From positions 1-21,774 of IMG/VR virus record IMGVR_UViG_3300046009_005266: a DNA stretch of 21,774 bases; one strand, written 5' to 3'. The notes beneath the pieces are model-generated. The model saw only the letters and a list, made by a program, of their open reading frames with translations, searched no databases and was not told the DNA's origin. Below are positions 55 through 13,853 of the stretch, piece by piece. The stretch's first letter is position 1. Each line of letters opens with the position of its first letter. Origin of the DNA: a virus. Both the position numbers and the translations under genes were made by a program.

Positions 55-1251
55 TTACCAGCAGTCTTCTCGGATTGCCGTTGGATTCTGGCCCATACTC
101 ACACTTCTCCAGTTTGTTCCACCAGATATTGTTTGAACGGGACTGGATTGGCCTGTTGTTGCGTTATTACCAAGAGCACCTTGCCCGTTTTCGCCCCAGA
201 CCCAGAGTGTACCGTCAGTTTTGATTGCGCCACGATTTCCGTAAAAAGAAAAAGATGCAAACGTGCTTACACTTCTCCAATTAGTACCACCGGAGACTGT
301 TTGGACTGGGCTGGATCGGCTTATTGTTGAGTTGGTGCCTAACTGGCCCGCACAGCCAGTGCCCCAAACCCAGAGTGTTCCATCCGTCTTGATTGCTGCA
401 ACACTATCCCCGGCGCTTACACTTCTCCAGTTTGTTCCACCAGAAATTGTTTGAACTGGACTGGATTGGCCTGTTGTTGCGTTATTACCAAGAGCACCCT
501 GCCCACCGCCACCCCAAGTCCAGAGAGTTCCGTCAGTTTTGATAGCTGCAGCGATGCCATATCCCATGGATGCGCTCTTCCAATTAGTTCCACCAGATAT
601 TGTTTGAACAGGGCTGGATCGGATTATTGTTGTGCCGTCACCGTTAGCGGCGGTTGCCCCACCCCATGTCCACAGAGTACCATCTGTTTTTATTGCAACG
701 GCATGCTTCGCGCCAAAGATGCCGTGGAAAATACTCAAGCTTTTCCAATTGGTTCCACCTGAAATTGTTTGAACTGGACTGGATTGTCGTATTGTTGAGT
801 TGTTACCTAGCGCACCTAGGCAGCCATAGCCCCACGTCCAAAGTGTTCCATCGGTTTTAATAGCTGCCGATCCATTAAAAGAAAAACTTGCGCATTTCCA
901 ATTCGTTCCACCAGAAATTGTCTGCACCGGACTTGATCTATTTATAGTTGAGTTATTGCCGGCTGTTCCGCCAAGCGCTGTACCACCCCATATCCAGAGT
1001 GTCCCATCAGTTTTAACTCCTCCGCTTTGACATCCACCACTACTAGAATTTTTCCAATTGGTCCCACCTGAAATTGTTTGAACGGGACTGGAATGTGGTA
1101 TTGTTGAGTTGTTGCCGGGACCAACACCACCCAGCGACCACAATCCGCCTTCTAAGAAGCAATCCTTACGGACGAATACATCTTCAAAATCTGCACCACT
1201 CCACCCCGCAGCGGTATCGGTGATCTTGAACCCCGTTGGATTACTTCCCAT
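55..1251 (-). CDS. RCC1-repeat beta-propeller tail protein C
   Basis: This 398-residue protein is the third RCC1 paralogue in the row. The leader (about 1-33, MGSNPTGFKITDTAAGWSG, DVFVRKDCFL) precedes EGGLWSLGG. Six KTDGTLW strands follow and the chain ends in SVSMGQNPTAIREDCW, which can complete the first half-blade to give seven blades. Loops preceding AIKTDG are unusually variable in length: AGDSVA in one blade against TFASFSFYGNRG and IFHGIFGAKHAV in others. The framework is the same as in proteins A and B. The start is set by the TAATG overlap with protein B. It ends with TAA, followed by an AT-rich 20-base stretch. A receptor-binding role is inferred from repeats and position. Confidence 0.82.
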   Translation of the reverse strand: MGSNPTGFKITDTAAGWSGADFEDVFVRKDCFLEGGLWSLGGVGPGNNSTIPHSSPVQTISGGTNWKNSSSGGCQSGGVKTDGTLWIWGGTALGGTAGNNSTINRSSPVQTISGGTNWKCASFSFNGSAAIKTDGTLWTWGYGCLGALGNNSTIRQSSPVQTISGGTNWKSLSIFHGIFGAKHAVAIKTDGTLWTWGGATAANGDGTTIIRSSPVQTISGGTNWKSASMGYGIAAAIKTDGTLWTWGGGGQGALGNNATTGQSSPVQTISGGTNWRSVSAGDSVAAIKTDGTLWVWGTGCAGQLGTNSTISRSSPVQTVSGGTNWRSVSTFASFSFYGNRGAIKTDGTLWVWGENGQGALGNNATTGQSSPVQTISGGTNWRSVSMGQNPTAIREDCW

Positions 1252-2477
1252 TAGTAGTCTCCTTCGTCACGGATTGCTACTGTCCTGGCATTGGAAGCAC
1301 TGCTACCTATTTCTGCACTCCGCCAATTATTACCGTCAGAAACTGTTTGTACAGGACTGGACCGAGATGTCTGCGAGTTGGTACCAAGCCGCCCGTCAGC
1401 CCCACAACCCCATACCCAAAGAGTACCATCGGTTTTGATAGCTACTCCCACTGCAGACGCTAAACTAACACTTCTCCAGTTCGTTCCGCCAGAGATTGTT
1501 TGTACTGGGCTAGAATAAACATTAGTTGTATTATTACCAAGCCCGCCGCCACGGCCGTCGCCCCACAGCCAGAGTGTTCCATCGGTTTTGATTGCTGCGG
1601 ATGCATATCTTGATGAACTACCGGGGCTTCTCCAATTCGTTCCACCAGAAACTGTTTGAACTGGACTGGATTTTGCTGTAGTTGAGTTGTCGCCCAACTT
1701 ACCGTACGCACCGCCACCCCACAGCCAGAGTGTTCCATCTTTTTTGACTGCAGTAATTGAATTATAACCTGCACTCACACTTCTCCAATTAGTACCACCA
1801 GAGACTGTTTGAACGGGAGAAGATTGATACGCAGTACCGTTACAACCAAGCCACCCACAAAATCCTTGGGCCCACGTCCAGAGTGTTCCATCTGTCTTAA
1901 TTGCGACAAATGCCGGATTGTTGCCCGTTTTAACACCAATGCTTCTCCAGTTGGTCCCGCCAGAAAATGTCTGGACAGGTGATGATCGTTCTCCGAAGGC
2001 AAGACTGGAGAAGCCACCCCACACCCAGAGAGTTCCATCTGTTTTGATTGCTGCTGATGTACCACCCCCGGCGCTTACACTCTTCCAATTAGTACCGCCA
2101 GAGACTGTTTGAACAGGGCTGGATTGATTTATAGTTGAGTTGTTACCGAGTTTGCCACCGGAAAAGCCGGGATCATTATTACAACCCCAACTCCAAAGTG
2201 TACCGTCAGTCTTTATTGCTATTGTGTGGTGTTCTCCGGTACTTACACTTCTCCAGTTAGTTCCACCGGAGACAGTTTGAACCGGACTGGATCGTCTTAT
2301 AGTTGAGTTGTCACCAAGACTGCCGGCGGCACCCTGCCCCCATATCCACAACGCAGGTGCTTGCATCCAAGGCACTAGACTAGGATATGCTTCAAGCAAA
2401 TATTCTTGAGTTACCAAATGGCAACCTAAATCCAGCCCATCGGTATCCTTAAATCTAGTACAAACTCGATCTGCCAT
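1251..2477 (-). CDS. RCC1-repeat beta-propeller tail protein B
   Basis: This 408-residue paralogue of the neighbouring RCC1 proteins has a longer non-propeller leader (about 1-42: MADRVCTRFKDTDG, then HLVTQEYLLEAYPSLV). Six K(T/K)DGTLW strands follow. PALWIWGQG at the start and ARTVAIRDEGDY at the end pair up to close a predicted seventh blade. The framework SSPVQTVSGGTNWRSV is nearly constant. Loops differ; the third blade lacks the LGNNST element and reads SSLAFGERSSPVQ, and others carry cysteines (WGCNNDPGFSGG, GFCGWLGCNG). It is probably an exposed adhesin at the fibre tip. Both junctions are TAATG overlaps, so its translation is probably coupled to the DUF4376 gene and propeller C. Confidence 0.82.
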   Translation of the reverse strand: MADRVCTRFKDTDGLDLGCHLVTQEYLLEAYPSLVPWMQAPALWIWGQGAAGSLGDNSTIRRSSPVQTVSGGTNWRSVSTGEHHTIAIKTDGTLWSWGCNNDPGFSGGKLGNNSTINQSSPVQTVSGGTNWKSVSAGGGTSAAIKTDGTLWVWGGFSSLAFGERSSPVQTFSGGTNWRSIGVKTGNNPAFVAIKTDGTLWTWAQGFCGWLGCNGTAYQSSPVQTVSGGTNWRSVSAGYNSITAVKKDGTLWLWGGGAYGKLGDNSTTAKSSPVQTVSGGTNWRSPGSSSRYASAAIKTDGTLWLWGDGRGGGLGNNTTNVYSSPVQTISGGTNWRSVSLASAVGVAIKTDGTLWVWGCGADGRLGTNSQTSRSSPVQTVSDGNNWRSAEIGSSASNARTVAIRDEGDY

Positions 2478-3151
2478 TATACGTTACCTGGTGTATTTTC
2501 TTCTACGATTACGATTGCATCTAGTTCTGCTAGAGTCTCGGCAGCATCAATTTGACCACTTAGAGTCGACTCCCAGTCAAAGCATTCCTGAATGTACTTT
2601 CCACCTTCTGAAACGATATACCCAAGGTCTGTTTTGGTTAAGTCCAACCATACTGTAGGAAACTTCCAACGAATTACTTCGTCGTCAGCCATCGTGACAA
2701 ACTTTTGAATGAAGATGTCACGATTACCTCTGCTTGTATCGCACCAGACATCGTGTCCCTGAATAGTACGAGTGATGCCCGCGTTTTCTTTATTCCAACG
2801 CTCAGCTGATACGATTGACTTAAGTTCTCCTCTGACTAGATCGATCGGCTTATCCTGTACCACCCAAGTTGCAGTTGCCTGAGCCTCTTCATTTTCGTCA
2901 TCATATGTCCAGATTGGGCCCTGGTGAAAATGAATCTTTGGATTGGTCAGGTCTTCATATACAGATATGCACTTGCGGATCTTGACACCTGGATATGGTT
3001 CGAATGGCACTCTTGATTCATCAGCTTGAGTGACGGTTACCTCTTCATCAAGTTCGTCATAAAGAACATCAGATATGTATCTTGGTCTCCAAGCGATTGG
3101 ACCAAGTATTACGAAATTAGCATCGTTATTATGATCTGTTATTACATACAT
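2477..3151 (-). CDS. DUF4376-containing fibre assembly-type protein
   Basis: This 224-residue protein has an N-terminal domain beginning MYVITDHNNDANFVILGPIA with WRPRY, then GVKIRKC and PKIHFHQGPIWTY around residues 55-83. The C-terminal part, about 108-212, fits the DUF4376 family: ERWNKENAGI, CDTSRGNRDIFIQKFV, VIRWKFPTVW, then IQECFDWESTLSGQIDAA. That family is frequently found in or beside tail-fibre and fibre-assembly proteins, so a chaperone or connector role for the neighbouring propellers is likely but not proven. The gene splits the propeller A and B genes. It is preceded by AAAGGAT about 10 bases before the ATG and a 17-base gap, the only real gap within the four-gene tip cluster. 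Its TAA overlaps the propeller B start (TAATG). Confidence 0.72.
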   Translation of the reverse strand: MYVITDHNNDANFVILGPIAWRPRYISDVLYDELDEEVTVTQADESRVPFEPYPGVKIRKCISVYEDLTNPKIHFHQGPIWTYDDENEEAQATATWVVQDKPIDLVRGELKSIVSAERWNKENAGITRTIQGHDVWCDTSRGNRDIFIQKFVTMADDEVIRWKFPTVWLDLTKTDLGYIVSEGGKYIQECFDWESTLSGQIDAAETLAELDAIVIVEENTPGNV

Positions 3152-3168
3152 TTATATGATCCTTTAGT

Positions 3169-4344
3169 TTAGAATTCTGTTACGCAGAGTGCCGCTGTCA
3201 CGGAAGCCGCAGCAGCAACACGTCTCCAATTTGTTCCCCCAGAGATTGTCTGAACGGGGCTGGATGAGCCTGCGGTTGAGCCTTGATTTATGTTGTTTCC
3301 AAGTGCGCCACGATATCCACTGCCCCAACCCCATAACGTCCCGTCAGTCTTAATTGCTACACCGCCGAAGAGCTTTGCATCAACCGCTCTCCAATTAGTA
3401 CCACCAGAAATTGTTTGAACGGGGCTGGATCTATTCGTAGTTGAGTTGTTACCTAATCGCCCGAGGTCCCCCAGACCCCATGTCCATAAAGAGCCGTCTG
3501 TTTTGATTGCAGCTGTCATACATTCGGCTAAAGCAACACTTCTCCAATTCGCCCCACCAGAAACGGTTTGAACTGGGCTGGATTGATTTGCAGTTGAGTT
3601 GTTACCAAGAGCTCCGCAGTATCCTCCTCCCCACAACCAAAGTGTTCCGTCAGTTTTTGTTGCTGCGGAATTATACCGACCTATACTAGCACTCTTCCAG
3701 TTTGTTCCACCGGATATCGTTTGAACTGGGCTGGATCGATCGGTTGTGGCGTTGTTTCCAAGACGTCCAACTTGCCCGCGACCCCACAGCCAAAGTGTTC
3801 CGTCAGTCTTGATTGCTGCGCTATGCTGGCATCCACCCCTCGCCACCCGTAGCCAGTTAGTTCCACCAGCGATTGTCTGAACTGGGCTAAGTGTCTCGTT
3901 CACGCTATCTTGAAGGTTATTTCCTAACTTTCCTTGGCCATTAGATCCCCAACTCCATAACGTCCCGTCAGTCTTAATCGCGTGAACCCAATTCGCGCCA
4001 CCGCCTATACTCCTCCAATTAGTTCCGCCGGAAATGGTTTGAACTGGGCTGGATCGTCTTATAGTTGAGTTGTTGCCGAGAACATCATGACCCCACAACC
4101 AGAGCGTTCCGTCAGTTTTAATGGCGGCGATGTGTTCCGACCCTGCTTTTATATCTTTCCAATTAGTTCCTCCGGAAATGGTCTGAACTGGGCTGGATCT
4201 CACAATCGTTGTGTTGTCACCTACACCGCAAGCAATGCCCATTCGGCCCCATGCCCACAACTGATGCCCAACGAAGCGGTCTATGAGTTCCTCTTCGGTG
4301 ACAAGAATATCTTTAATGCATCCACACTGTGATAAAAATGGCAT
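3169..4344 (-). CDS. RCC1-repeat beta-propeller tail protein A
   Basis: This 391-residue protein is almost entirely RCC1-type repeats of about 50 residues with a framework of SSPVQTISGGTNWRSV, a variable loop, AIKTDGTLWxWG, and a second variable loop ending LGNNST. Six full KTDGTLW/KTDGSLW strands are present. The N terminus supplies HQLWAWG and the C terminus VTAALCVTEF, which together can make a seventh blade. The leader (about 1-29, with KDILVTEEELIDRFVG) is not propeller and may dock to the fibre. RCC1 repeats form beta-propellers; in phages they are presumed adhesins, not chromatin regulators. Loop lengths vary, and one blade has a short WGHDVLGNN loop. Its ATG overlaps the collagen fibre stop by one base (TAATG). 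Receptor binding is inferred. Confidence 0.82.
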   Translation of the reverse strand: MPFLSQCGCIKDILVTEEELIDRFVGHQLWAWGRMGIACGVGDNTTIVRSSPVQTISGGTNWKDIKAGSEHIAAIKTDGTLWLWGHDVLGNNSTIRRSSPVQTISGGTNWRSIGGGANWVHAIKTDGTLWSWGSNGQGKLGNNLQDSVNETLSPVQTIAGGTNWLRVARGGCQHSAAIKTDGTLWLWGRGQVGRLGNNATTDRSSPVQTISGGTNWKSASIGRYNSAATKTDGTLWLWGGGYCGALGNNSTANQSSPVQTVSGGANWRSVALAECMTAAIKTDGSLWTWGLGDLGRLGNNSTTNRSSPVQTISGGTNWRAVDAKLFGGVAIKTDGTLWGWGSGYRGALGNNINQGSTAGSSSPVQTISGGTNWRRVAAAASVTAALCVTEF

Positions 4345-7300
4345 TATGAGTCTCTCATAGTATTGATTTCTGTTCTCAGTTGTTTTACTTCATCAATTAG
4401 AATAGCAATTAACGGTGTATAATTTACATATTTATTACCGTTTGTGTTATTTATTAACTCCGGTAATATTTCTTCTAATTCCTGCGCAATTACACCATAA
4501 CTCTTAGTTCCAGTTGATTTCCATTTAAACTGATAAGTTTTAATTCTATTAAGTATGTTGGTAGCATTTTCTATAGTTTCAATCTCTTCTTTGTAAGCAG
4601 CATCAGAAAGTGAATTATATTCTGTAGCATTCAATGTTCCAGTGGCCGCATCAAAATAGAGTTTTGTAGTAGTTACTTTTGGCGTTTGGTTAGATCCGGC
4701 AGCACCTACCATAACTGGATATAATAATGTAGTTGCTGTATCATTAGTAGCATTTATTATATTAGACGGTCCTGTTAGACCTTGGAGACCCTGGGCACCT
4801 CTTAAACCTTGAATACCCTGTGAACCATCAGATCCAATGCCTTGAATACCTTGAGCACCTGTAATACCCTGGGCACCTCTTAAACCTTGAATACCTTGAA
4901 TACCTTGAGCACCGTTAGATCCAATGCCAGCAAGACCTTGTTGACCGGTAATACCTTGGACACCCTGGATACCTTGAATACCTTGGCCTGTTAAGCCTTG
5001 AATACCTTGTTGACCTGTAATGCCTTGGACACCCTGGATACCCTGTATGCCTTGTCCAGTTAAACCTTGGAGTCCTTGAACACCCTGTCTGCCTTGTACA
5101 CCCTGTTGTCCTATAAGACCCTGTATGCCTTGCAAACCTTGGATACCTTGGCCTGCGAATGCACCAGTAATACCCTGTAGACCCTGAATACCTTGACCTG
5201 CAAAGGCACCAGAAATACCCTGTAGTCCTTGGATACCTTGACCTGCAAAGGCACCAGTAATACCTTGTAGACCTTGTAGACCCTGACCAGCAAATGCACC
5301 GGAAATACCCTGTAAGCCCTGCAAACCCTGAATACCTTGACCTGCAAATGCACCGGTAGTACCTTGTAGACCTTGAATACCTTGTCCAGCGAATGCACCA
5401 GATATACCTTGGATACCTTGGAAACCCTGTCGACCTTGGATACCCTGGAGACCCTGACCGGTAAGACCTTGGATACCCTGTAGACCTTGGATACCCTGTC
5501 CAGCAAATGCACCGGTTATACCTTGCAGACCCTGTAGACCTTGTCCTGCGAAGGCACCAGATATACCTTGGATACCTTGGAAACCCTGTCGACCTTGGAT
5601 ACCCTGGAGACCCTGACCAACAAGTCCTTGGATACCTTGTAGGCCTTGAACACCCTGGATACCTTGTAGACCCTGGATACCCTGACCCACAAATGCACCA
5701 GATATACCTTGTAGACCCTGGATGCCCTGGCCTGCAAATGAACCTGTAGTACCTTGAATACCTTGAACACCCTGGATACCTTGAACACCTTGTCTACCTT
5801 GAGCGCCAGTAAGTCCTTGAAGTCCCTGTAAACCCTGTGAACCTGAGATACCTTGTCTTCCTTGAATACCCTGATTACCAGTAATACCTTGAGATCCAGA
5901 AAGACCTTGAACACCCTGTCGACCTTGAATACCTTGCGATCCCACAAATTGCCCAACACTAGTCCAGTTGGTGCCATCATAAACCCATAAATCTCCCGTA
6001 AGTGTCTCAATAACAGCGTTACCGGCCACTGCACTACCAAACGAGGATTTTAACAAAGCATCACTAGCTACTTCAATACTTCCGATAATTGTGATACCGG
6101 GTCCGTATGTTCCCTGAACACCTTGTAAACCCTGGATACCCTGCCCAGTTAAACCTTGAACACCCTGAATACCTTGCTGACCTACTAGACCTTGAACACC
6201 CTGGTTACCGCGCAAGCCTTGCGGGCCGATCGGGCCTTGAATGCCCTGGTGACCTTGAAGACCCTGTTGACCGAGCACACCTTGACGACCTTGAATACCT
6301 TGGACGCCTTGAAGACCTTGGTTTCCAGAACCACTAATACCTTGGATACCTTGGCCACCAAATATACCCTGTACGCCTTGAGATCCTGTAATACCTTGTA
6401 TTCCCTGCTCGCCTTGGATACCCTGTTGTCCAGATAATCCTTGTATTCCCTGCTCGCCTTGAATACCTTGGGTACCCTGTATACCTTGTTCGCCTGTAAT
6501 ACCCTGAATACCTTGACCAGTAATACCTTGTCTGCCCTGAATACCCTGAGTACCTTGTTGGCCTGTAATACCCTGAATACCTTGACCAGTAATACCTTGT
6601 CTGCCCTGAATACCCTGAGTTCCTTGGGATCCCGTAATACCCTGAGATCCTGTAATACCCTGAATACCTTGGGATCCTGTAAGACCTTGGACACCTTGCT
6701 GGCCCTGAATACCTTGCTGTCCCTGAATACCCTGTTGACCTATAAGCCCCTGAACACCTTGTTGACCTTGAATACCCTGAGTACCTTGGGATCCCGTAAT
6801 ACCCTGTGTACCGCCCGCACCCTGAATACCTTGCTGGCCCTGAATACCCTGTTGACCTTGAATGCCCTGAATACCCTCTTGCCCTTGAATGCCTTGCTGT
6901 CCCTGAATACCCTGTTGACCTATAAGCCCTTGAAGCCCTTGGACGCCCTGTCTACCTTGAGCTCCAGTAAGTCCTTGAATACCTTGAATCCCTTGGACGC
7001 CCTGTCTACCTTGAGCTCCAGTAAGTCCTTGAATACCTTGAATACCTTGGGATCCCGTAAGACCTTGGACGCCTTGAGTGCCTTGAACACCTTGAGTACC
7101 TTGGGATCCTGTAAGACCTTGAGTTCCTTGTGGTCCTATAATACCCTGAATGCCCTGACCAGTTAAACCTTGAGTACCTTGTATACCTTGAGGCCCTTTA
7201 ATTTGGCCAACATTTTCCCATGTTGTTCCATCATAAACCCACAAATTACCTGATGCTTGATCAATTACGCCGTTTCCTGTAACTGCTGTGGGAAACGCGT

Positions 7301-8387
7301 TGTTTAAAACATCTTGTTCATCATCTGGTGGAACGAAGTTCGACACGTCTATTACAGTTCCTATAATAGTAAGAGACGGGCCATAAGTTCCCTGGATCCC
7401 TTGTATCCCTTGTCTGCCTTGAATTCCTTGAATTCCCTGCTCACCCTGTAGACCTTGGGTTCCTTGAATGCCTTGTTGACCCTGAACACCTTGCGCGCCT
7501 TGAATTCCTTGTGGCCCTTGGATCCCTTGTACACCCTGAGTACCTTGCTCACCTTGAATACCTTGCTGGCCTTGGACGCCCTCATTACCCTGGATACCTT
7601 GCTGACCTTGGATACCTTCATTGCCCTGGATACCTTGAGTACCTTGAATACCCAATTCACCTTGGACACCTTGTTGACCCTGAACGCCTTGCGCGCCTTG
7701 AATTCCCTGTTGGCCAGTAAGACCCTGAATACCTTGCTCGCCCTGGATACCTTGCTGACCTTGAATACCTTGAGTACCTTGGGTGCCTTCTTGTCCTTGA
7801 ATACCTTGCTGGCCTTGAATACCCTGTTGACCCTGAATACCTTGTGTACCCTGTTGACCTTGAATACCCTGTGGACCTTGTATTCCTTGTGATCCTTGAA
7901 TACCCTGTTCACCCTGGATACCTTGCTGACCTTGAATACCCTGTTCGCCCTGAATACCCTGTTCGCCCTGAATACCCTGTTGACCTTGAATACCTTGATC
8001 ACCTTGAATACCTTGAGTACCCTGAATACCTTGCGGCCCTTCAGACCCTTGAATACCCTGAATACCTTGACCTACTAAGCCTTGAAGCCCCTGTTGACCT
8101 TGGATACCTTGGCGGCCTTGGATACCTTGTATTCCTTGTCCAGTTAAACCCTGGATACCCTGGATACCCTGTCTACCTTGGATACCTTGGATACCTTGCA
8201 GGCCTTGGAGACCTTGCACACCTTCGTTAAGTATTATCCAAGTTGCGCCATCGGAATAATAAACATTACTATCAACACCGTAAACTATAGCGCCTTCAAA
8301 ATAGCCGGGATCTAGATTAATAGGAACTTCTAATTTAGTTCCTTGTCCTATAACGGATGTGGATCCACGTACAGTTCTTAAAACCAT
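4344..8387 (-). CDS. Collagen-like tail fibre with C-terminal S74 chaperone domain
   Basis: This 1347-residue protein has a short N-terminal cap (1-55) and three collagen-like Gly-X-Y rods at about 56-333, 398-759 and 816-1208. Two related collar modules (334-397 and 760-815) interrupt them, and a beta linker leads to an S74-type intramolecular chaperone (about 1255-1347). Triplets are dominated by GIQ, GLQ, GVQ, GTQ and GRQ. Proline is rare and, where seen, sits in position X (GPQ), never in Y. The chaperone has SLSDAAYKEEIETIENATN, then YGVIAQELEEILPELI; S1261 and K1266 match the five-residue Ser-Lys spacing of self-cleaving endosialidase-type chaperones. The domain would trimerise the fibre and then be cut off. 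Both ends are TAATG junctions. Plus-strand open frames across the rods are artefacts of the repeat. Confidence 0.85.
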   Translation of the reverse strand: MVLRTVRGSTSVIGQGTKLEVPINLDPGYFEGAIVYGVDSNVYYSDGATWIILNEGVQGLQGLQGIQGIQGRQGIQGIQGLTGQGIQGIQGRQGIQGQQGLQGLVGQGIQGIQGSEGPQGIQGTQGIQGDQGIQGQQGIQGEQGIQGEQGIQGQQGIQGEQGIQGSQGIQGPQGIQGQQGTQGIQGQQGIQGQQGIQGQEGTQGTQGIQGQQGIQGEQGIQGLTGQQGIQGAQGVQGQQGVQGELGIQGTQGIQGNEGIQGQQGIQGNEGVQGQQGIQGEQGTQGVQGIQGPQGIQGAQGVQGQQGIQGTQGLQGEQGIQGIQGRQGIQGIQGTYGPSLTIIGTVIDVSNFVPPDDEQDVLNNAFPTAVTGNGVIDQASGNLWVYDGTTWENVGQIKGPQGIQGTQGLTGQGIQGIIGPQGTQGLTGSQGTQGVQGTQGVQGLTGSQGIQGIQGLTGAQGRQGVQGIQGIQGLTGAQGRQGVQGLQGLIGQQGIQGQQGIQGQEGIQGIQGQQGIQGQQGIQGAGGTQGITGSQGTQGIQGQQGVQGLIGQQGIQGQQGIQGQQGVQGLTGSQGIQGITGSQGITGSQGTQGIQGRQGITGQGIQGITGQQGTQGIQGRQGITGQGIQGITGEQGIQGTQGIQGEQGIQGLSGQQGIQGEQGIQGITGSQGVQGIFGGQGIQGISGSGNQGLQGVQGIQGRQGVLGQQGLQGHQGIQGPIGPQGLRGNQGVQGLVGQQGIQGVQGLTGQGIQGLQGVQGTYGPGITIIGSIEVASDALLKSSFGSAVAGNAVIETLTGDLWVYDGTNWTSVGQFVGSQGIQGRQGVQGLSGSQGITGNQGIQGRQGISGSQGLQGLQGLTGAQGRQGVQGIQGVQGIQGTTGSFAGQGIQGLQGISGAFVGQGIQGLQGIQGVQGLQGIQGLVGQGLQGIQGRQGFQGIQGISGAFAGQGLQGLQGITGAFAGQGIQGLQGIQGLTGQGLQGIQGRQGFQGIQGISGAFAGQGIQGLQGTTGAFAGQGIQGLQGLQGISGAFAGQGLQGLQGITGAFAGQGIQGLQGISGAFAGQGIQGLQGITGAFAGQGIQGLQGIQGLIGQQGVQGRQGVQGLQGLTGQGIQGIQGVQGITGQQGIQGLTGQGIQGIQGVQGITGQQGLAGIGSNGAQGIQGIQGLRGAQGITGAQGIQGIGSDGSQGIQGLRGAQGLQGLTGPSNIINATNDTATTLLYPVMVGAAGSNQTPKVTTTKLYFDAATGTLNATEYNSLSDAAYKEEIETIENATNILNRIKTYQFKWKSTGTKSYGVIAQELEEILPELINNTNGNKYVNYTPLIAILIDEVKQLRTEINTMRDS
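4764..5942 (-). repeat. Collagen-like rod 3 with regular GAFAGQG breaks
   Basis: About 393 residues. It differs from rods 1 and 2 in having ten copies of G-(A/S)-F-(A/V)-G-Q-G, in which an alanine (once valine) stands where a triplet glycine is expected. The breaks recur at short, fairly regular intervals in the central part. Confidence 0.88.
5395..5618 (-). repeat. 65-base direct repeat, 159-base offset
   Basis: Bases 5395-5459 and 5554-5618 are identical by eye. The 159-base offset is 53 codons. Each copy covers a FQGIQGISGA segment of rod 3. Confidence 0.85.
6492..6620 (-). repeat. 60-base direct repeat, 69-base offset
   Basis: Bases 6492-6551 and 6561-6620 are identical by eye. The 69-base offset is 23 codons, so the reading frame is kept. 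It encodes part of rod 2 with GITGQG units. Confidence 0.85.
6936..7043 (-). repeat. Perfect 54-base tandem duplication
   Basis: Bases 6936-6989 and 6990-7043 are identical by eye, 54 of 54. The unit encodes 18 in-frame residues of rod 2. Exact identity contrasts with the synonymous drift among other triplets and suggests a recent duplication. Confidence 0.88.
7389..8222 (-). repeat. Collagen-like rod 1
   Basis: About 278 residues of Gly-X-Gln triplets, giving a 9-base DNA periodicity (GGN ATH/YTN CAR). The tract contains a few one-residue slips such as LTGQGIQG and LVGQGIQG, where two glycines are separated by one residue. Glycine codons vary (GGT, GGG, GGC). Confidence 0.9.
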
Positions 8388-8833
8388 TATCCGATCTCCA
8401 CTGTTCCGTCTACGTCATCCTGTTCAGCTTGTCCAACAGTATAAGATATGGTTACATTAATTCCGCTTGCCGTAGAACTAGTTATTTCAAGTGTATCACC
8501 GCTAGCAATAAATTGCCCATTTAATGGCATCGGTAAAATATCATAAGCAGGAATTGGTAATTGGGATGCTATTATATAGTTAGTAGTATCAGAATTTCTA
8601 TAAATTCGTATGTCTACCGTAGCACTTGATGATGTTGTATTTGTAATGAGAAGAGGACTGATTATTTCAGCAACACCAGGAACTGTTATAGTACCCCCGC
8701 CGAATGATTCTTCGGGAATTTCATATTCTGGAACTTCTATTAGTATAGTGTAACCAGCATTTGAAATGGATTTACTAACACCTATTGGTTTCGCGTCGGG
8801 TGCTTGACTGGTTATAATTTTTGTTATCGTCAT
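8387..8833 (-). CDS. Small beta-sandwich virion protein
   Basis: This 148-residue protein has an alternating beta pattern like an immunoglobulin-like or fibronectin-like sandwich. Recognisable pieces are SPLLITNTTSSSATVDIRIY around residues 59-78, then PMPLNGQFIASGDTLEITSS, then NVTISYTVGQAEQDD near the end. Proteins with this order of motifs occur beside fibre genes in cyanophage-like phages, and I would expect a virion decoration or fibre-connector role. No enzyme motif, signal peptide or membrane segment is visible. The start overlaps the upstream stop (ATGA) and its TAA overlaps the next ATG (TAATG), so it is probably translated in a coupled way with both neighbours. The function is not experimentally known to me. 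Confidence 0.7.
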   Translation of the reverse strand: MTITKIITSQAPDAKPIGVSKSISNAGYTILIEVPEYEIPEESFGGGTITVPGVAEIISPLLITNTTSSSATVDIRIYRNSDTTNYIIASQLPIPAYDILPMPLNGQFIASGDTLEITSSTASGINVTISYTVGQAEQDDVDGTVEIG

Positions 8834-10980
8834 GACATTATCCTACTGTTTGCTGCTCTTCTTGCTAGTCTTCTAACTGATGATGTAAACGGTCTTCCTT
8901 CTAAACGACCAGTTCTACCGTTAATTTTTAGGCCACCCGCGAAATATTGATTATTCAATTCGTCTGCACCAGACCATCTAACTCTACCATTATCTTCTAT
9001 TAATACCGATCCACTGGCTGGTAGTGGTTTACCCACTCGCCTAAAGTTTAATGGCAGTGCATTTTTATTTACACCGGCACCTGCAAGGTTAAATTGGTGT
9101 GCTAGACTTTCAATTAAACTACCGAACAATAATTTTTGCGGATTTAATATTGTTCTAATTACAAGGTTTATTATGGTATTAAGCATATCTTGTTCAGCTG
9201 GATCTGCAGTAAATGTTAACATATAATTTTTCATTCTATTGAACGAGAATATAAATGCATCCAATACCGTAGTATCATTAGGGCCTATATTAGTCCACGC
9301 GGAAATTCCATCTGAAACATAAACATCCCCTTCATATATGTTTTCGGGATTTGATGAAGGATCATATACTATATAAGCTGAATTTTCTGCTACTGTATTT
9401 GCATCTGGAAGATCTAAAACATCATCAATACTGCCAATATATACTGTATTTGCATCGGGTGGGTTAAACACTTGAAATACGTGATCACCCTTATAATCAA
9501 AAAAGCTGGCTGCAAAGTTTCTAGAACCTGTTTGTCCGGCAGATAATAAATCGTAATAAATTGATTGGATAAAGTTATTAGCATCTCGTCTGGTTAAAGT
9601 TTCATCTATGTTGGCCCCCAAAGTGACAACATATGTGCCGTATACCTGATCCCACATATCTTGTATAATATCAAGTCTGTTGTCACTTATTGCTTCAGCA
9701 AGTGTATTTGCAGTAATCAATACATCTTTTTCTACACCAGTCAATTCATACGGATTTACGACAAAGGTGAATCCTTTGGCGCGCATAGAGATATCACCAA
9801 ACTGTGTACCAGAATTGTTAAGCGTCACTTGACCGCCGTTTAGAGCATAGAAAGCGCATCTTTGGAAAATAGTAATAGAACCGATACCGTTAATACCAGC
9901 TCCATTCTTTGCCACATAACCCATACCGTTTGGCGATCTTGGTGTTGCACCAAATGCTAGCATATATGGGAAAATTGTATCTGGATCAAGTACTGCTCTA
10001 TCTGCAAGTAATACACCGCCGCCCCGGCCCACCAATGGATTTGCATTGATTGGATCTAATGGAGCAGCAATATTTTTTCGTGCATAGTTACTAATTTGGC
10101 TACAATCTTTGATATATGGAGATCTTAAGATAGTAGCACCTGGTCGGAATGCAACAGCGAAACCCTTTGTAGGATCATCGAAACTGTCGACTCTCATATT
10201 TTTGAAACCTAGGCCTTGTATGTAGCACCCAGAACCAACGAGGAAGCAATTTTCTTCAATCGGTTCATATTGAGCCCAATTTTCTGCTGACCCGTTATTT
10301 GGATCATAAAGGTGTATATTAGTTGCATACTGCCCATTTGTTGATACTACTGAACAATCATCTCTGAGCGATAAATTGCCTTCAGTAAAATAATCGCCAG
10401 GCATAACTGATATTGATAAAGGATAATTGACGGAATTCATAAATGCAACTGCTTCTTCAAGTGTCTGGTAAGGCTTCATATAACTTCCATTACCACCAGG
10501 TTCGGCGTCGGCTGCAACGTAAACTTTATTTGTCTTTTTAAGTTGTTCGGCGATTTCAAAATTAAAGTCAGCAAAACTTATCTTGACAGTTTGACCAGAT
10601 GAAACGTCTTTAAGTATAAATTCATCTGCGTCTGCAATAGGTGATGTATAATTATTCAAACCACTCATAGTAAAATTAGTAAGATCAGTACCAGAAAGTG
10701 AACCGTTATTTATTGTTGGTGCATTTAATGCGCTGTTATTAATGTTAGAAGTATTAATTGTGCTAGAGTTGATAGTAACTCCAGTACTTACAGCGTTTGT
10801 GATAGTCCCGCCAGTAATAATAATGTTATTAAAGGGTTCTTTTTGAATTACTTTTACTAATTCTGATCTAGTGACATTTTTAGTACCATCATCGCCTTGT
10901 GCGATGTTTACCATGACAAAAAGGTCTTGAGATGCAGTTTCATCTGCTAGTATTGGACCTAATTGAGAGATTTTTGACAT
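8830..10980 (-). CDS. Beta-helix tail adhesin / virion structural protein
   Basis: This 716-residue protein begins with a fibre-type N-terminal segment (MSKISQLGPILADETASQDL, then NVTRSELVKVIQ). A beta-solenoid-like stretch rich in Thr/Asn/Ile follows at about residues 51-100 (ITGGTITNAVSTGVTINSST). At about 152 the segment KVYVAADAEPGGNGSYMKPY followed by TLEEAVAFMN marks the entry of a right-handed beta-helix, the pectin-lyase-like fold used by many phage adhesins; it runs to roughly 430. No lyase catalytic site is evident. The end (IEDNGRVRWSGADELNNQYF, then NGRTGRLEGRPFTSSVRRLA) is a C-terminal signature I recall from cyanophage structural proteins. AAGG lies about 8 bases before the ATG, with a late promoter just upstream. 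The protein is likely a receptor-binding or fibre-base protein. Confidence 0.78.
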   Translation of the reverse strand: MSKISQLGPILADETASQDLFVMVNIAQGDDGTKNVTRSELVKVIQKEPFNNIIITGGTITNAVSTGVTINSSTINTSNINNSALNAPTINNGSLSGTDLTNFTMSGLNNYTSPIADADEFILKDVSSGQTVKISFADFNFEIAEQLKKTNKVYVAADAEPGGNGSYMKPYQTLEEAVAFMNSVNYPLSISVMPGDYFTEGNLSLRDDCSVVSTNGQYATNIHLYDPNNGSAENWAQYEPIEENCFLVGSGCYIQGLGFKNMRVDSFDDPTKGFAVAFRPGATILRSPYIKDCSQISNYARKNIAAPLDPINANPLVGRGGGVLLADRAVLDPDTIFPYMLAFGATPRSPNGMGYVAKNGAGINGIGSITIFQRCAFYALNGGQVTLNNSGTQFGDISMRAKGFTFVVNPYELTGVEKDVLITANTLAEAISDNRLDIIQDMWDQVYGTYVVTLGANIDETLTRRDANNFIQSIYYDLLSAGQTGSRNFAASFFDYKGDHVFQVFNPPDANTVYIGSIDDVLDLPDANTVAENSAYIVYDPSSNPENIYEGDVYVSDGISAWTNIGPNDTTVLDAFIFSFNRMKNYMLTFTADPAEQDMLNTIINLVIRTILNPQKLLFGSLIESLAHQFNLAGAGVNKNALPLNFRRVGKPLPASGSVLIEDNGRVRWSGADELNNQYFAGGLKINGRTGRLEGRPFTSSVRRLARRAANSRIMS

Positions 10981-10999: not shown

Positions 11000-11007
11000 T
11001 ATTTATA
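11000..11007 (-). promoter_or_regulatory. T4-type late promoter (TATAAATA)
   Basis: The minus strand reads TATAAATA, an exact match to the T4 late promoter element recognised through the gp55-type sigma factor. It lies in the 22-base gap before the beta-helix adhesin and overlaps the TAA stop of the ParB-like gene. The element ends 20 bases before the ATG, leaving room for a transcription start and the AAGG site. It is the only such element in the window located at a gene junction. Confidence 0.6.
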
Positions 11008-11362
11008 AAGCTAGAACGAATTTCAGTATTTCATCACGATCTAATATATATGCTTTTATCACATTTTCGCCATTATTAATTATTTTCTTTAATCTATGTC
11101 TTCCGTCTATCATTCTGTATTTTTTCATATCTGGATTTTCCATATTCTTTGCAAGTATAACGGGTTTGGTAATATCGGCTCTTAAGTATCTAATATTATC
11201 ATTACATATACTTTCTAATTCCTTATATCCAATCAAACTAATATGAACATTACTAAATTGAATATCTTTAAATTTAATATAAGAGTAAACACTCTTACAA
11301 TTTATAACGAGATTTCTATTACAATCATTTAATTTCCAACTGTCATTTAATATGTGTATCAT
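11003..11362 (-). CDS. ParB/sulfiredoxin-fold domain small protein
   Basis: This 119-residue protein carries a compact motif set typical of the ParB N-terminal/sulfiredoxin-like fold: KPVIL at residues 66-70, then KKYRMIDGRHRLKKI (80-94), with the DGRHR core at 86-90, then VIKAYILDRDEI. In ParB-like proteins this region binds or hydrolyses nucleotide, and in related stand-alone phage proteins the role is unknown. There is no helix-turn-helix DNA-binding domain, so it is not a full partition protein. Residues 1-60 may form a phage-specific beta domain. The gene is AT-rich (about 22-25% G+C in counted lines). Its start overlaps the oxygenase stop, and its TAA stop is embedded in a late-promoter-like TATAAATA. 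Functional linkage to fibre assembly is unproven. Confidence 0.6.
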   Translation of the reverse strand: MIHILNDSWKLNDCNRNLVINCKSVYSYIKFKDIQFSNVHISLIGYKELESICNDNIRYLRADITKPVILAKNMENPDMKKYRMIDGRHRLKKIINNGENVIKAYILDRDEILKFVLAL

Positions 11363-11901
11363 ATTATTCTAAATCCGAAACTGAGCCTATCTGTTTCACT
11401 TCCGACACAGTGCCAAAGGTACGGCGGTTTATCCGTGATATTAAACATTCTAACTGTTATACCTTTATCATCATAATCTGTAATTACTTTACCATTTTCA
11501 AAGTATCTAAAAAAAGATTTTCCACCTTCTTTAGACCAAGTGATATATAGTCTTTTACATGGTATATCACTATTTGTATGCCAAGACATAAATCCAGTAT
11601 CGGGATAATGAAAATAACCACTCACTTGAATTATAGAATCAGTAAAAACTTTTTGTAATACCGGTATAAATTTATTTGTTATCCTTAAACCAGAAAAATT
11701 AATTAGATTAGAAGTTTCTGATATTATGATATCTGATTTGCGTGTTTCAATCAGCGATTTTTCCGAGACATAATCTTCCCAAGCTTTACATACTTTTAAT
11801 CCAACCAGCTTACTGTTTATTAGAATTTTATCGACGTTTTTAGCAATAATTTGTTCTATTTCATTTTGTATTTCAGCATCAAACGTTATACGTAAACTCA
11901 T
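11359..11901 (-). CDS. 2OG-Fe(II) oxygenase-like protein
   Basis: This 180-residue protein has the layout of a small 2-oxoglutarate/iron(II) oxygenase. The C-terminal half reads SGYFHYPDTGFMSWHTNSD (residues 94-112), then KRLYITWSKEGGKSFFRYF, and finally PYLWHCVGSETDRLSFGFRI (160-179). The likely iron-binding histidines are H108 and H164, 56 residues apart. R172 is placed to bind 2-oxoglutarate. The usual HxD carboxylate position is N110 (H-T-N), so the facial triad may be incomplete or use D112. Oxygenases of this size are common in cyanophage-like genomes, where substrates are mostly unknown. Residues 1-85 are helical and unassigned. It overlaps both neighbours by 4 bases (ATGA) and shares their low G+C. 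Modification of a virion protein or a host target are both possible. Confidence 0.65.
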   Translation of the reverse strand: MSLRITFDAEIQNEIEQIIAKNVDKILINSKLVGLKVCKAWEDYVSEKSLIETRKSDIIISETSNLINFSGLRITNKFIPVLQKVFTDSIIQVSGYFHYPDTGFMSWHTNSDIPCKRLYITWSKEGGKSFFRYFENGKVITDYDDKGITVRMFNITDKPPYLWHCVGSETDRLSFGFRII

Positions 11902-12398
11902 TTTAATAAGTACTCATACTTTTCTTTGTAGTCTACTAATAATTCTCTCGGCACAACCTTGTTAACTTTAAAGAAACAATCTAAATCTTTAAGTTTATAT
12001 TGTACTTCCGCTGGAAGATTTCTTAAAATCTGCTTGTCATTTTCGATCTGCTTTACTACATCTTGTTTCCCAGATAACATTGCTCTCATTTGCAATATAT
12101 CCAGTATAGAAAATATTTCTGATCTTGCTGATCTATAAAGATCTAAAAAGAACATTTTAATTAGATCCATATCAAAAATTACATCTGTTGGTTTACTATA
12201 ATTATCAAATTCTGTTTTATTAATGTGTATCAAGATAGCTTTTTCGCTATCACTCATATCTTTATTATAAGGTTTTATCAATGTCACAGAATCCATAGGT
12301 ATTACAGTTTCTTTTTTTAGTAATTGAACGGATTTGTTTGAAATTACAAAATTCAACTTTTTTGTACCCACTGGATTATTAAAAAATATAATATTCAT
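11898..12398 (-). CDS. Tail-fibre assembly chaperone-like protein (weak)
   Basis: I do not firmly recognise this 166-residue protein. The region from residue 92 to 132 has the pattern R..(I/L)F..LD.LQ.RA...G, then a spacer, then DKQILRNLPAEV. This resembles the C-terminal pattern of phage tail-fibre assembly chaperones, in which an Arg-Asp/aromatic helix precedes LRDLP. Residues 1-80 look like a small alpha/beta domain with MNIIFFNNPVG at the start. A chaperone for the preceding fibre would suit its position. The gene is strongly AT-rich (about 23% G+C in one hand-counted line), unlike the fibre gene before it. AGAGG lies upstream of the ATG and its TGA overlaps the next ATG by 4 bases. Alternatives are a host-takeover or unknown small structural protein. 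Confidence 0.6.
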   Translation of the reverse strand: MNIIFFNNPVGTKKLNFVISNKSVQLLKKETVIPMDSVTLIKPYNKDMSDSEKAILIHINKTEFDNYSKPTDVIFDMDLIKMFFLDLYRSARSEIFSILDILQMRAMLSGKQDVVKQIENDKQILRNLPAEVQYKLKDLDCFFKVNKVVPRELLVDYKEKYEYLLK

Positions 12399-12407
12399 AT
12401 CTGCCTC

Positions 12408-13853
12408 TTAAAAAACTACTAATGCGATTCGAGTAGGGTCAACTGCTTCTATACCAAATGCATTTCCGCCACCGTTGTCATTACCAACTAAAAATGAATA
12501 CCACTGACTATACGTTCTTTTAGCTCTTACTGTAAACCCAGTTGTAGTAAATGAAGTTGCAAATGCATTCCACAAGTCTGCTTGAAAATTATTTATATGG
12601 TTTACTGGCAGCGGGCTGCCCGCCGGATCATCAATTTCAAGCCCTCCAGGGATGGCGTTAGGATTCTGAGATAGATCCCCATCATCAACATTCGTTATAA
12701 CTACACCCCAATTGCTGGATCCATCTCGAATTGAAGCATCGCAAGTAAATGAATAATTACCTTCAGCAACCCTCGTTAGTGTCAAGTTTCTCGATTTAAT
12801 AACAGCACCAGTGGCACCATTAAATACAATGAAAGCCTTTACACCAGCCGCGTTTATCGAATCTAGAGTTCTAGCTGGGTTCATAACCTTTGTTGCGCTT
12901 GTTAATGTTGTAGCATCAGATAAACTAGCAAAATCTACTGATAAAGTTCTATCTGCTGCTAAAGTTCCTCCACCCAATAAACCGGTTCCTGGAGATATAG
13001 TTCTAGAGGTATATACGCCGTTAGTTACGGTGCCTGCATTGCCATTAATACTTCCTGTAATAGTATTTGTCACGGTCAAATTAGTTAATGTACCTACTGT
13101 AGTTAGACTGCTTGTAACCACATTACTCGCTAGTGTAGTGCCTGTTATATTTGCAGCTGCGACTGAACCTGCGGTACCAGATGTATTTCCTGTGACATTA
13201 CCGGTAACATTTCCAGTAAGATTACCCGCAAACGCAGTAGAAGTTAAGATACCTGTGCTTGGATTATATGTGAAGCCAGTATCAGTTCTAACATTTTCAT
13301 TTCCGGTTGCTGCATCTACAAATACTGGAAAATGAGTAGCGTTTGTCGTGTTTGTTGCAACAAGTGCGACTGTAGTTGCAATAGATGCAGTCCCTGAAAG
13401 TATACCAGTTATTTCGATATTGCCAGATGAAGTTAATTTTAAATTTGCGGCACCGTTAGTAATAATAAAATTTTTGGTAGTATTGTTTTCAAAACCAATT
13501 TGCCAATCTGTATCAGTGGTGTTAAAGAGTGATACTCTAGGACCTGAAGTACTAGATAATCTACTTAAAACAGTTTGGTTAGTTGTAATAAAAACAGGAG
13601 CAGAAAATTCTACTTCTGTCGATCCAACTTTAGGACTAATATCATCAACTCTTAAAAGTGTACTTGCAATTATATTATTAGCGGTAAAATTACCCTGCAG
13701 AGTAGCATTACCTACTGTAACATCTCCACCTGCAGTAGCAAGAGAAGTTGTCACTATATCAGTTTTTACTAAGTCTACTAATTCGTTAGTTTTATCCAAC
13801 CAAACTTGAAATGTGTTATTAGCAGATACTTCAGTTATTGATGACTTTGCCAT
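12408..13853 (-). CDS. Tail fibre-like structural protein with GNLTGNV repeats
   Basis: This 481-residue protein starts with MAKSSITEVSANNTFQVWLD and continues with a helical stretch (KTNELVDLVKTDIVTTS), a typical N-terminal attachment segment of cyanophage-like fibres. Thr/Asn/Gly-rich beta repeats follow. Near residues 185-200 there is FTYNPSTGILTSTAFAG, then a GNLTGNVTGNVTGN run around 205-220, a motif common in trimeric beta-structured fibre shafts. The C-terminal part (about 340-481), with TRVAEGNYSFTC and ending FGIEAVDPTRIALVVF, may be a globular tip. It is acyl-carrier-free and enzyme-free as far as I can see. The start overlaps the small coiled-coil gene by 23 bases, with a GAGAAG sequence before the ATG. 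A fibre or short adhesin role is well supported by repeat style and context; the receptor is unknown. Confidence 0.75.
   Translation of the reverse strand: MAKSSITEVSANNTFQVWLDKTNELVDLVKTDIVTTSLATAGGDVTVGNATLQGNFTANNIIASTLLRVDDISPKVGSTEVEFSAPVFITTNQTVLSRLSSTSGPRVSLFNTTDTDWQIGFENNTTKNFIITNGAANLKLTSSGNIEITGILSGTASIATTVALVATNTTNATHFPVFVDAATGNENVRTDTGFTYNPSTGILTSTAFAGNLTGNVTGNVTGNTSGTAGSVAAANITGTTLASNVVTSSLTTVGTLTNLTVTNTITGSINGNAGTVTNGVYTSRTISPGTGLLGGGTLAADRTLSVDFASLSDATTLTSATKVMNPARTLDSINAAGVKAFIVFNGATGAVIKSRNLTLTRVAEGNYSFTCDASIRDGSSNWGVVITNVDDGDLSQNPNAIPGGLEIDDPAGSPLPVNHINNFQADLWNAFATSFTTTGFTVRAKRTYSQWYSFLVGNDNGGGNAFGIEAVDPTRIALVVF
12590..12597 (-). promoter_or_regulatory. Possible internal late promoter (TATAAATA)
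   Basis: Exact TATAAATA within the 3' part of the GNLTGNV fibre gene, 192 bases before the AT-rich cassette begins at the chaperone-like gene. Coding constraint (HINNF) could explain it. Confidence 0.25.

Follow-up and report, generated by a model that had tools for sequence, protein, structure and literature searches.

A 2-oxoglutarate-oxygenase-fold protein with a conserved His-x-Asn site in a phage tail-fibre cassette: a candidate fibre hydroxylase and its ParB/sulfiredoxin-fold partner

The window, that is, the whole stretch of DNA analysed, comprises positions 1-21,774 of the IMG/VR virus record IMGVR_UViG_3300046009_005266 (21,774 nucleotides). It contains a same-strand tail operon with a baseplate wedge gene, fibres, a collagen-repeat protein with Peptidase_S74 and three RCC1 propellers, and the gene considered here lies in that operon together with the following features.

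8830-10980, minus strand: downstream gene for a 716-aa protein of unknown function (phrog_29288), a probable virion component to judge by its position in the tail operon.
11003-11362, minus strand: ParB/sulfiredoxin-fold partner, 119 aa, with a DGRHR loop (pLDDT 96.0; Foldseek); 4-nt overlap with the oxygenase gene.
11359-11901, minus strand: 2-oxoglutarate (2OG)-oxygenase-fold protein, 180 aa, ATG start (model pLDDT 94.9; PDB matches PHD2, P4H and PiuC).
11386-11388, minus strand: codon of R172, putative 2-oxoglutarate-binding arginine, a role suggested by its position; 199 of 199 profile hits.
11410-11412, minus strand: codon of H164, presumed to be the second histidine ligand of the metal; kept in 199 of 199 profile hits.
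11449-11451, minus strand: codon of R151, nearly invariant (198 of 199 profile hits).
11572-11580, minus strand: codons of H108-T109-N110 (H108, 11578-11580; N110, 11572-11574), forming HxN instead of HxD; His and Asn in 199 of 199 profile hits.
11898-12398, minus strand: tail-fibre-assembly-like gene, 166 aa, directly upstream of the oxygenase gene with a 4-nt overlap (phrog_20196, unknown function, E 0.00039).
12408-12500, minus strand: end of the fibre tip, GNDN...GIEAVDPTRIALVVF, with invariant residues in 13 of 13 aligned rows; used in the linkage scans.
12408-13853, minus strand: tail fibre, 481 aa, with the linked C-terminal tip (phrog_30742 tail fiber, E 0.0013; alignment).

The initial annotation had described a 2OG-oxygenase-like gene at 11359-11901 on the minus strand, with H108, N110, H164 and R172 as the residues of interest, and inspection of the codons by eye showed this numbering to be exact. 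The gene had also been placed inside a tail-fibre cluster, in agreement with the fibre two genes upstream and the 716-aa protein, collagen fibre and RCC1 propellers downstream. The nearly invariant R151 and the ParB-like downstream gene are additions of the present analysis. In many loci PHROG labels the gene one or two positions upstream of the oxygenase as tail fibre or fibre assembly; phrog_863 (tail fiber assembly) matches 9 of the 45 genes directly upstream, the window's own copy not being among them. The collagen-repeat fibre (4344-8387, 1347 aa; PF01391, E 3.9e-129) ends in the Peptidase_S74 chaperone domain, and by eye the third position of its collagen triplets is mostly Gln. The three RCC1 propeller genes (Pfam; 55-4344) have common SSPVQTxSGGTNW repeats, and a DUF4376/tail-fibre gene is situated at 2477-3151, between the second and the third of them.

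Relatives of the oxygenase were found by tblastn in 505 stretches of IMG/VR, the best 80 of which were retained for analysis, and the GTDB genome collection gave eight with the patterns used; among 50,697 phage records only two contained matches, both distant. The resulting set of 199 profile hits (198 locus entries) includes the bacterial relatives, and contigs recur among the entries, L013 and L188 for example being recurrences between retrievals; counts of loci are therefore redundant, and clustering at 90% identity into 106 clusters was used to correct for this. Y99, W107, H108, N110, W163, H164 and R172 are invariant in this set, although the count for N110 is partly ascertained, because in three of the searches one pattern spells Asn. 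The Asn is nevertheless kept in all 80 loci retrieved with patterns that end before its position. Purifying selection was indicated in eight of eight pairs of oxygenase relatives (dN/dS 0.08-0.40), and values of 0.13-0.37 were obtained for four pairs of the partner gene. The relatives, the dN/dS values and the 4-nt overlaps with both neighbours establish the open reading frame as a real gene. The HxN motif, which the initial annotation had pointed out as a variant of the iron site, is, on the alignments, a trait of the family and not a quirk of the window copy. Two further architectures were seen: in the bacterial relative L088:7092-8294 a GNAT acetyltransferase domain is fused ahead of the HxN oxygenase, and the HxN oxygenases of L127:5989-6714 and L128:5989-6702 end in a long Glu-Gln repeat.

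No Pfam model, including any 2OG model, matched the window oxygenase at E values up to 10, PHROG gave no usable match for it, and for the relatives L001, L011 and L012 no usable Pfam match was obtained. The only PDB sequence-profile matches (E 0.074 and 1.6) were dismissed as chance. The AlphaFold model, built with 39 sequences (pLDDT 94.9, pTM 0.89), displays the double-stranded beta-helix of the Fe(II)/2OG oxygenase superfamily, in accord with the class first suggested for the gene. A structural comparison with prolyl hydroxylases had been proposed in the initial annotation, and these enzymes are indeed among the best matches: PHD2 headed the Foldseek search of the PDB (E 4.6e-5), and VIA returned PHD2 (Z 11.2, rmsd 3.3, 144 residues aligned), PiuC (Z 11.0), P4H of P. 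putida (Z 10.8) and the viral collagen prolyl hydroxylase vCPH (Z 10.6).

In the model H108 ends a strand, and H164 and R172 begin the last two strands. Motif spacing, compared with that of PHD2, and strand order thus suggest that N110 occupies the place of the metal-binding Asp and R172 that of the residue contacting the 2OG carboxylate. A basic residue after the distal His, as expected in the superfamily, is present as R172 in every profile hit, its contact with 2OG being read from position, whereas the HxD/E...H iron triad is replaced by HxN throughout, and the HxD iron motif of prolyl 4-hydroxylases is absent. Asn acting as a neutral ligand, or a water molecule at the site, may by analogy allow such a motif to function.

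The literature offers precedents in both directions. AspH is active with two His and water and without a metal carboxylate, according to the portion of PMC13168262 available to us, and in human prolyl 4-hydroxylase Glu was reported as the sole replacement of Asp that retains activity, as stated in the accessible part of PMC2767507. The likeness to aspartyl/asparaginyl hydroxylases put forward in the initial annotation therefore holds as a precedent for an active enzyme lacking the carboxylate, but as regards kinship the AspH family (Pfam Asp_Arg_Hydrox) gave no sequence-profile match at E values up to 10, and the analogy is a possibility rather than membership. Neither AspH nor halogenases occurred among the 50 matches listed by Foldseek or by VIA, from which their exclusion does not follow.

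The intolerance of prolyl 4-hydroxylase to such a loss would also suit a dead oxygenase fold, without reactive iron, which serves as a chaperone or scaffold of fibre assembly and whose conservation would reflect contact with the fibre or with 2OG alone. A scaffold would, however, be expected to lose the His, Asn, His and 2OG-type Arg that are invariant in all 199 hits, bacterial relatives included. From the invariant HxN and the low dN/dS values it follows that selection acts on the site, a point against decay of the enzyme; the natural conservation of HxN favours activity, and the scaffold is regarded by us as unlikely.

Alternatively, Asn could leave room at the metal for chloride or another anion to bind, giving a halogenase-like or ligand-assisted site and a halogenated or otherwise substituted residue. 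Seawater is rich in chloride, a point in favour of this; known halogenases, however, carry Ala or Gly, not Asn, at the carboxylate position. 2OG halogenases devoid of the carboxylate ligand are described in the available part of PMC2767507, but AspH, which also lacks it, apparently does not halogenate its substrate (PMC13168262, in the portion available), and such a chemistry is considered very improbable here.

The connection with the fibre was followed through the fibre tip and the chaperone. In the clade of the window the tip carries the motif GGNDNN...VDPxYI, with G, D, N, G, D and P invariant in 13 of 13 rows. Scanning with this tip gave 34 loci, 33 of them with the oxygenase 407-515 bases downstream, and scanning with a second set of tips gave 15 loci, 13 with the oxygenase. 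The three loci lacking it all lie at contig ends, the sequence past the tip extending for 208 bases in L282 and 94 bases in L309 and stopping at the end of the match in L315. Over all retrieved loci, most of which had been obtained via the oxygenase or the tip, 142 of 145 tip matches are near an oxygenase and three are at a contig end. The tip is absent from all 19 partner loci without the oxygenase, and two tip sequences compared, as a check on cultured phages, with the 50,697 phage records gave no match. As a control, one clade's chaperone was used for a scan, which led to the same contigs, with the oxygenase (by contig name) in 10 of 11 and the eleventh ending early. The chaperone is thus linked as tightly as the tip, so that the linkage is a mark of the cassette and gives the tip no special standing as substrate; tip and chaperone were accordingly dropped as independent tests of the substrate.

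The initial annotation had proposed Asn/Asp-rich loops of the RCC1 propellers (GNNST, GDNST) as the residues modified. This did not hold up: propellers were found near one of the 106 clusters, that of the window itself, most loci being short, and are poor candidates. Collagen repeats were also rejected as a general substrate, being present in 13 of the 106 clusters, a count obtained on short loci; a first collagen filter, applied before this count, had missed some.

The oxygenase is fused to a Phage_tail_APC domain in L007-type proteins (PF16778, E 8e-13), and a tail-assembly-chaperone domain was found in 11 of the 106 clusters, fused in seven and adjacent in four. Together with the position of the gene after the fibre, this fusion would suit the scaffold described above. 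Fusion and tip linkage alike show that the homologues do not always lie far from fibre genes, the finding that the initial annotation had named as contrary to its proposal. Any counted feature is wanting in 51 of the 106 clusters, some of which are still near fibres; others, for instance L124-L126, L133-L137, L144, L146, L011 and L012, are not. With distant members thus found apart from fibres, the superfamily as a whole does not serve the fibre, and a fibre role is claimed only for the clade of the window and its near relatives. The loci are for the most part pieces of metagenomic contigs.

The featureless clusters are also what would be expected of an active oxygenase directed at a host molecule or metabolite, such as a receptor sugar, a lipid, a free amino acid or a nucleotide, and located among the fibre genes as one half of an accessory pair, the ParB-fold protein being the other. 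The 4-nt overlaps within the tail operon, the fusion to a chaperone domain and a tip linkage without exception wherever the contig extends far enough speak against such a target, which we consider unlikely.

The partner is, according to its model, a single ParB/sulfiredoxin-fold domain, and the helix-turn-helix and C-terminal dimerisation domains of partition ParB proteins are absent from its 119 residues. The top 50 Foldseek rows listed consist of ParB, SbnI, SerK, sulfiredoxin and their relatives (best E 1.8e-3), and VIA gave moderate Z values, up to 7.1, with rows assigned to the ParB/Srx superfamily by name or by our judgement; SbnI is also the best PDB profile match, although a weak one (E 0.44). 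The DGRHR loop and K93 are invariant in 21 of 21 aligned rows. SerK and SbnI use a catalytic Glu, and no conserved Glu was evident in the partner alignment at the offset derived from the VIA comparison. Both act on free serine, according to the available part of a 2025 survey (PMC12704722), as would accord with a small-molecule target of the pair. The same survey mentions phage ParB-fold proteins that have a single domain and a length of about 100 aa, and considers that they may function as independent units; the word oxygenase is absent from its main text.

The partner occurs in 57 of the 198 locus entries, as a separate gene within 300 bases in 54 and fused in one (L090), the remaining two representing one contig with the partner 5.3 kb away. 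After clustering it is adjacent or fused in 30 of 106 clusters: downstream on the same strand in 24, upstream on the opposite strand in five and fused in one. Its state changes at least seven times on a quick tree, whose open forks and long branches prevent gain from being separated from loss. In the reverse direction the oxygenase was found in 61 of 80 partner loci. That the pairing recurs in several layouts, and once as a fusion, suggests that the two proteins share a function.

The HxN oxygenase is missing from 19 partner loci; in three of these (L260, L261 and L268) the partner lies beside or near 2OG-FeII_Oxy_5, 2OG-FeII_Oxy_3 or JmjC_2 genes, and the neighbours of L264 are, by eye, those of L261. 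The partner may thus go with 2OG oxygenases more widely, and the presence of genuine oxygenases next to the same partner is a further point against the inactive scaffold. The other loci either show small genes, genes of T4-like type or a gene for a tail or fibre protein next to the partner, or are too short to be informative. The ParB-like gene of L262, L263, L265 and L272-L275 lies amid T4-like genes without an oxygenase, and a 487-aa neighbour in this group is, in our assumption, helicase-like.

A NodU-like carbamoyltransferase adjoins the oxygenase in eight of the 106 clusters, downstream in seven and upstream in one (PF16861, E 3.5e-56 in L101), and this adjacency changed at least three times on the quick tree. 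Enzymes of this type act mostly on small molecules, as would again agree with a target other than the fibre. A collagen/Gly-rich fibre, an opposite-strand ParB-like gene, the HxN oxygenase and a NodU-like carbamoyltransferase are found together in L193:4100-8968, where two further oxygenase-like genes were noted by eye; the 210-kb contig has no near match among the 50,697 phage records.

A virion adhesin as the target is the best-supported reading. We favour, with moderate confidence, a catalytically active 2OG hydroxylase with the neighbouring fibre as its substrate, within a cassette of fibre, chaperone, oxygenase and partner, the partner elaborating or regulating the modification. The fold, the invariant residues, the gene overlaps, the recurrent pairing, the fusion and the linkage to the tip are results of computation; for catalysis, substrate, product, order of steps and partner chemistry we infer the following. 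The protein, with its prolyl-hydroxylase fold, would be a hydroxylase that uses non-haem iron and 2-oxoglutarate, with His-x-Asn...His as its metal site, and would act in a host-recognition cassette composed of a fibre with a defined tip, the fibre chaperone, the oxygenase and the ParB/sulfiredoxin-fold partner. It would hydroxylate one or more residues of the neighbouring fibre, for which the conserved Asn/Asp-rich tip is the best candidate. The partner might next perform a phosphoryl-type transfer onto the new hydroxyl or control the step by nucleotide binding, and in other phages the carbamoyltransferase would occupy the neighbouring position; hydroxylation followed by transfer of a group onto the hydroxyl seems the simplest chemistry uniting these parts. 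Against this reading stand the tolerance of prolyl 4-hydroxylase for Glu alone (PMC2767507, in the part available), the 51 featureless clusters, a tip linkage that is a cassette linkage, and the partner's lack of an evident Glu. A search of the open-access literature found no report of such an oxygenase-fibre system.

It is tempting to extend this reading, tentatively and with less confidence, to an oxygen-dependent tailoring of fibres in marine phages, by the HxN oxygenase together with a ParB-fold enzyme or a carbamoyltransferase, such that receptor binding needs chemistry that is not templated. If this were true, the receptor specificity of these phages would be partly written by enzymes, beyond the sequence of the fibre alone; host-range prediction from sequence would be affected, and a recombinant fibre produced without its oxygenase might fail. 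The naturally conserved His-x-Asn site would also serve to probe the need of Fe/2OG hydroxylases for a carboxylate ligand, and a role would be offered for the single-domain ParB-fold phage proteins (as noted in the available part of PMC12704722).

Compared with known systems, PHD2, P4H of P. putida and vCPH of PBCV-1 are the best fold matches and show the same order of His, His and Arg along the strands. The window family differs from them in its low identity (about 8-14%), in the exchange of Asp for Asn in all members found, in having no Pfam 2OG match and in its location in a phage fibre cassette. AspH has the motif HxG, with water at the site, and the window protein does not match its family in Pfam. 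Nevertheless both are of the 2OG oxygenase type and have two His but lack a carboxylate at the metal (for AspH, PMC13168262), and AspH acts on Asn/Asp of proteins. Cyanophage 2OG oxygenases (2OG-FeII_Oxy_5 and similar) are of the Pfam types that adjoin the same partner in L260, L261 and L268. They differ in being matched by Pfam and in carrying HxD. According to the available text of PMC3037559, which proposes no fibre role for them, such enzymes occur frequently among marine T4-like phages. The Phage_tail_APC/tail-fibre assembly chaperones are related to the present system through their fusion to the oxygenase in the seven clusters given above. The known families of this kind comprise the chaperone alone and are not known to carry an oxygenase. 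Finally, SbnI, SerK and Srx, also single-domain proteins, have the same ParB/sulfiredoxin fold as the partner, which is distinguished from them by its coupling to an oxygenase and by its DGRHR loop.
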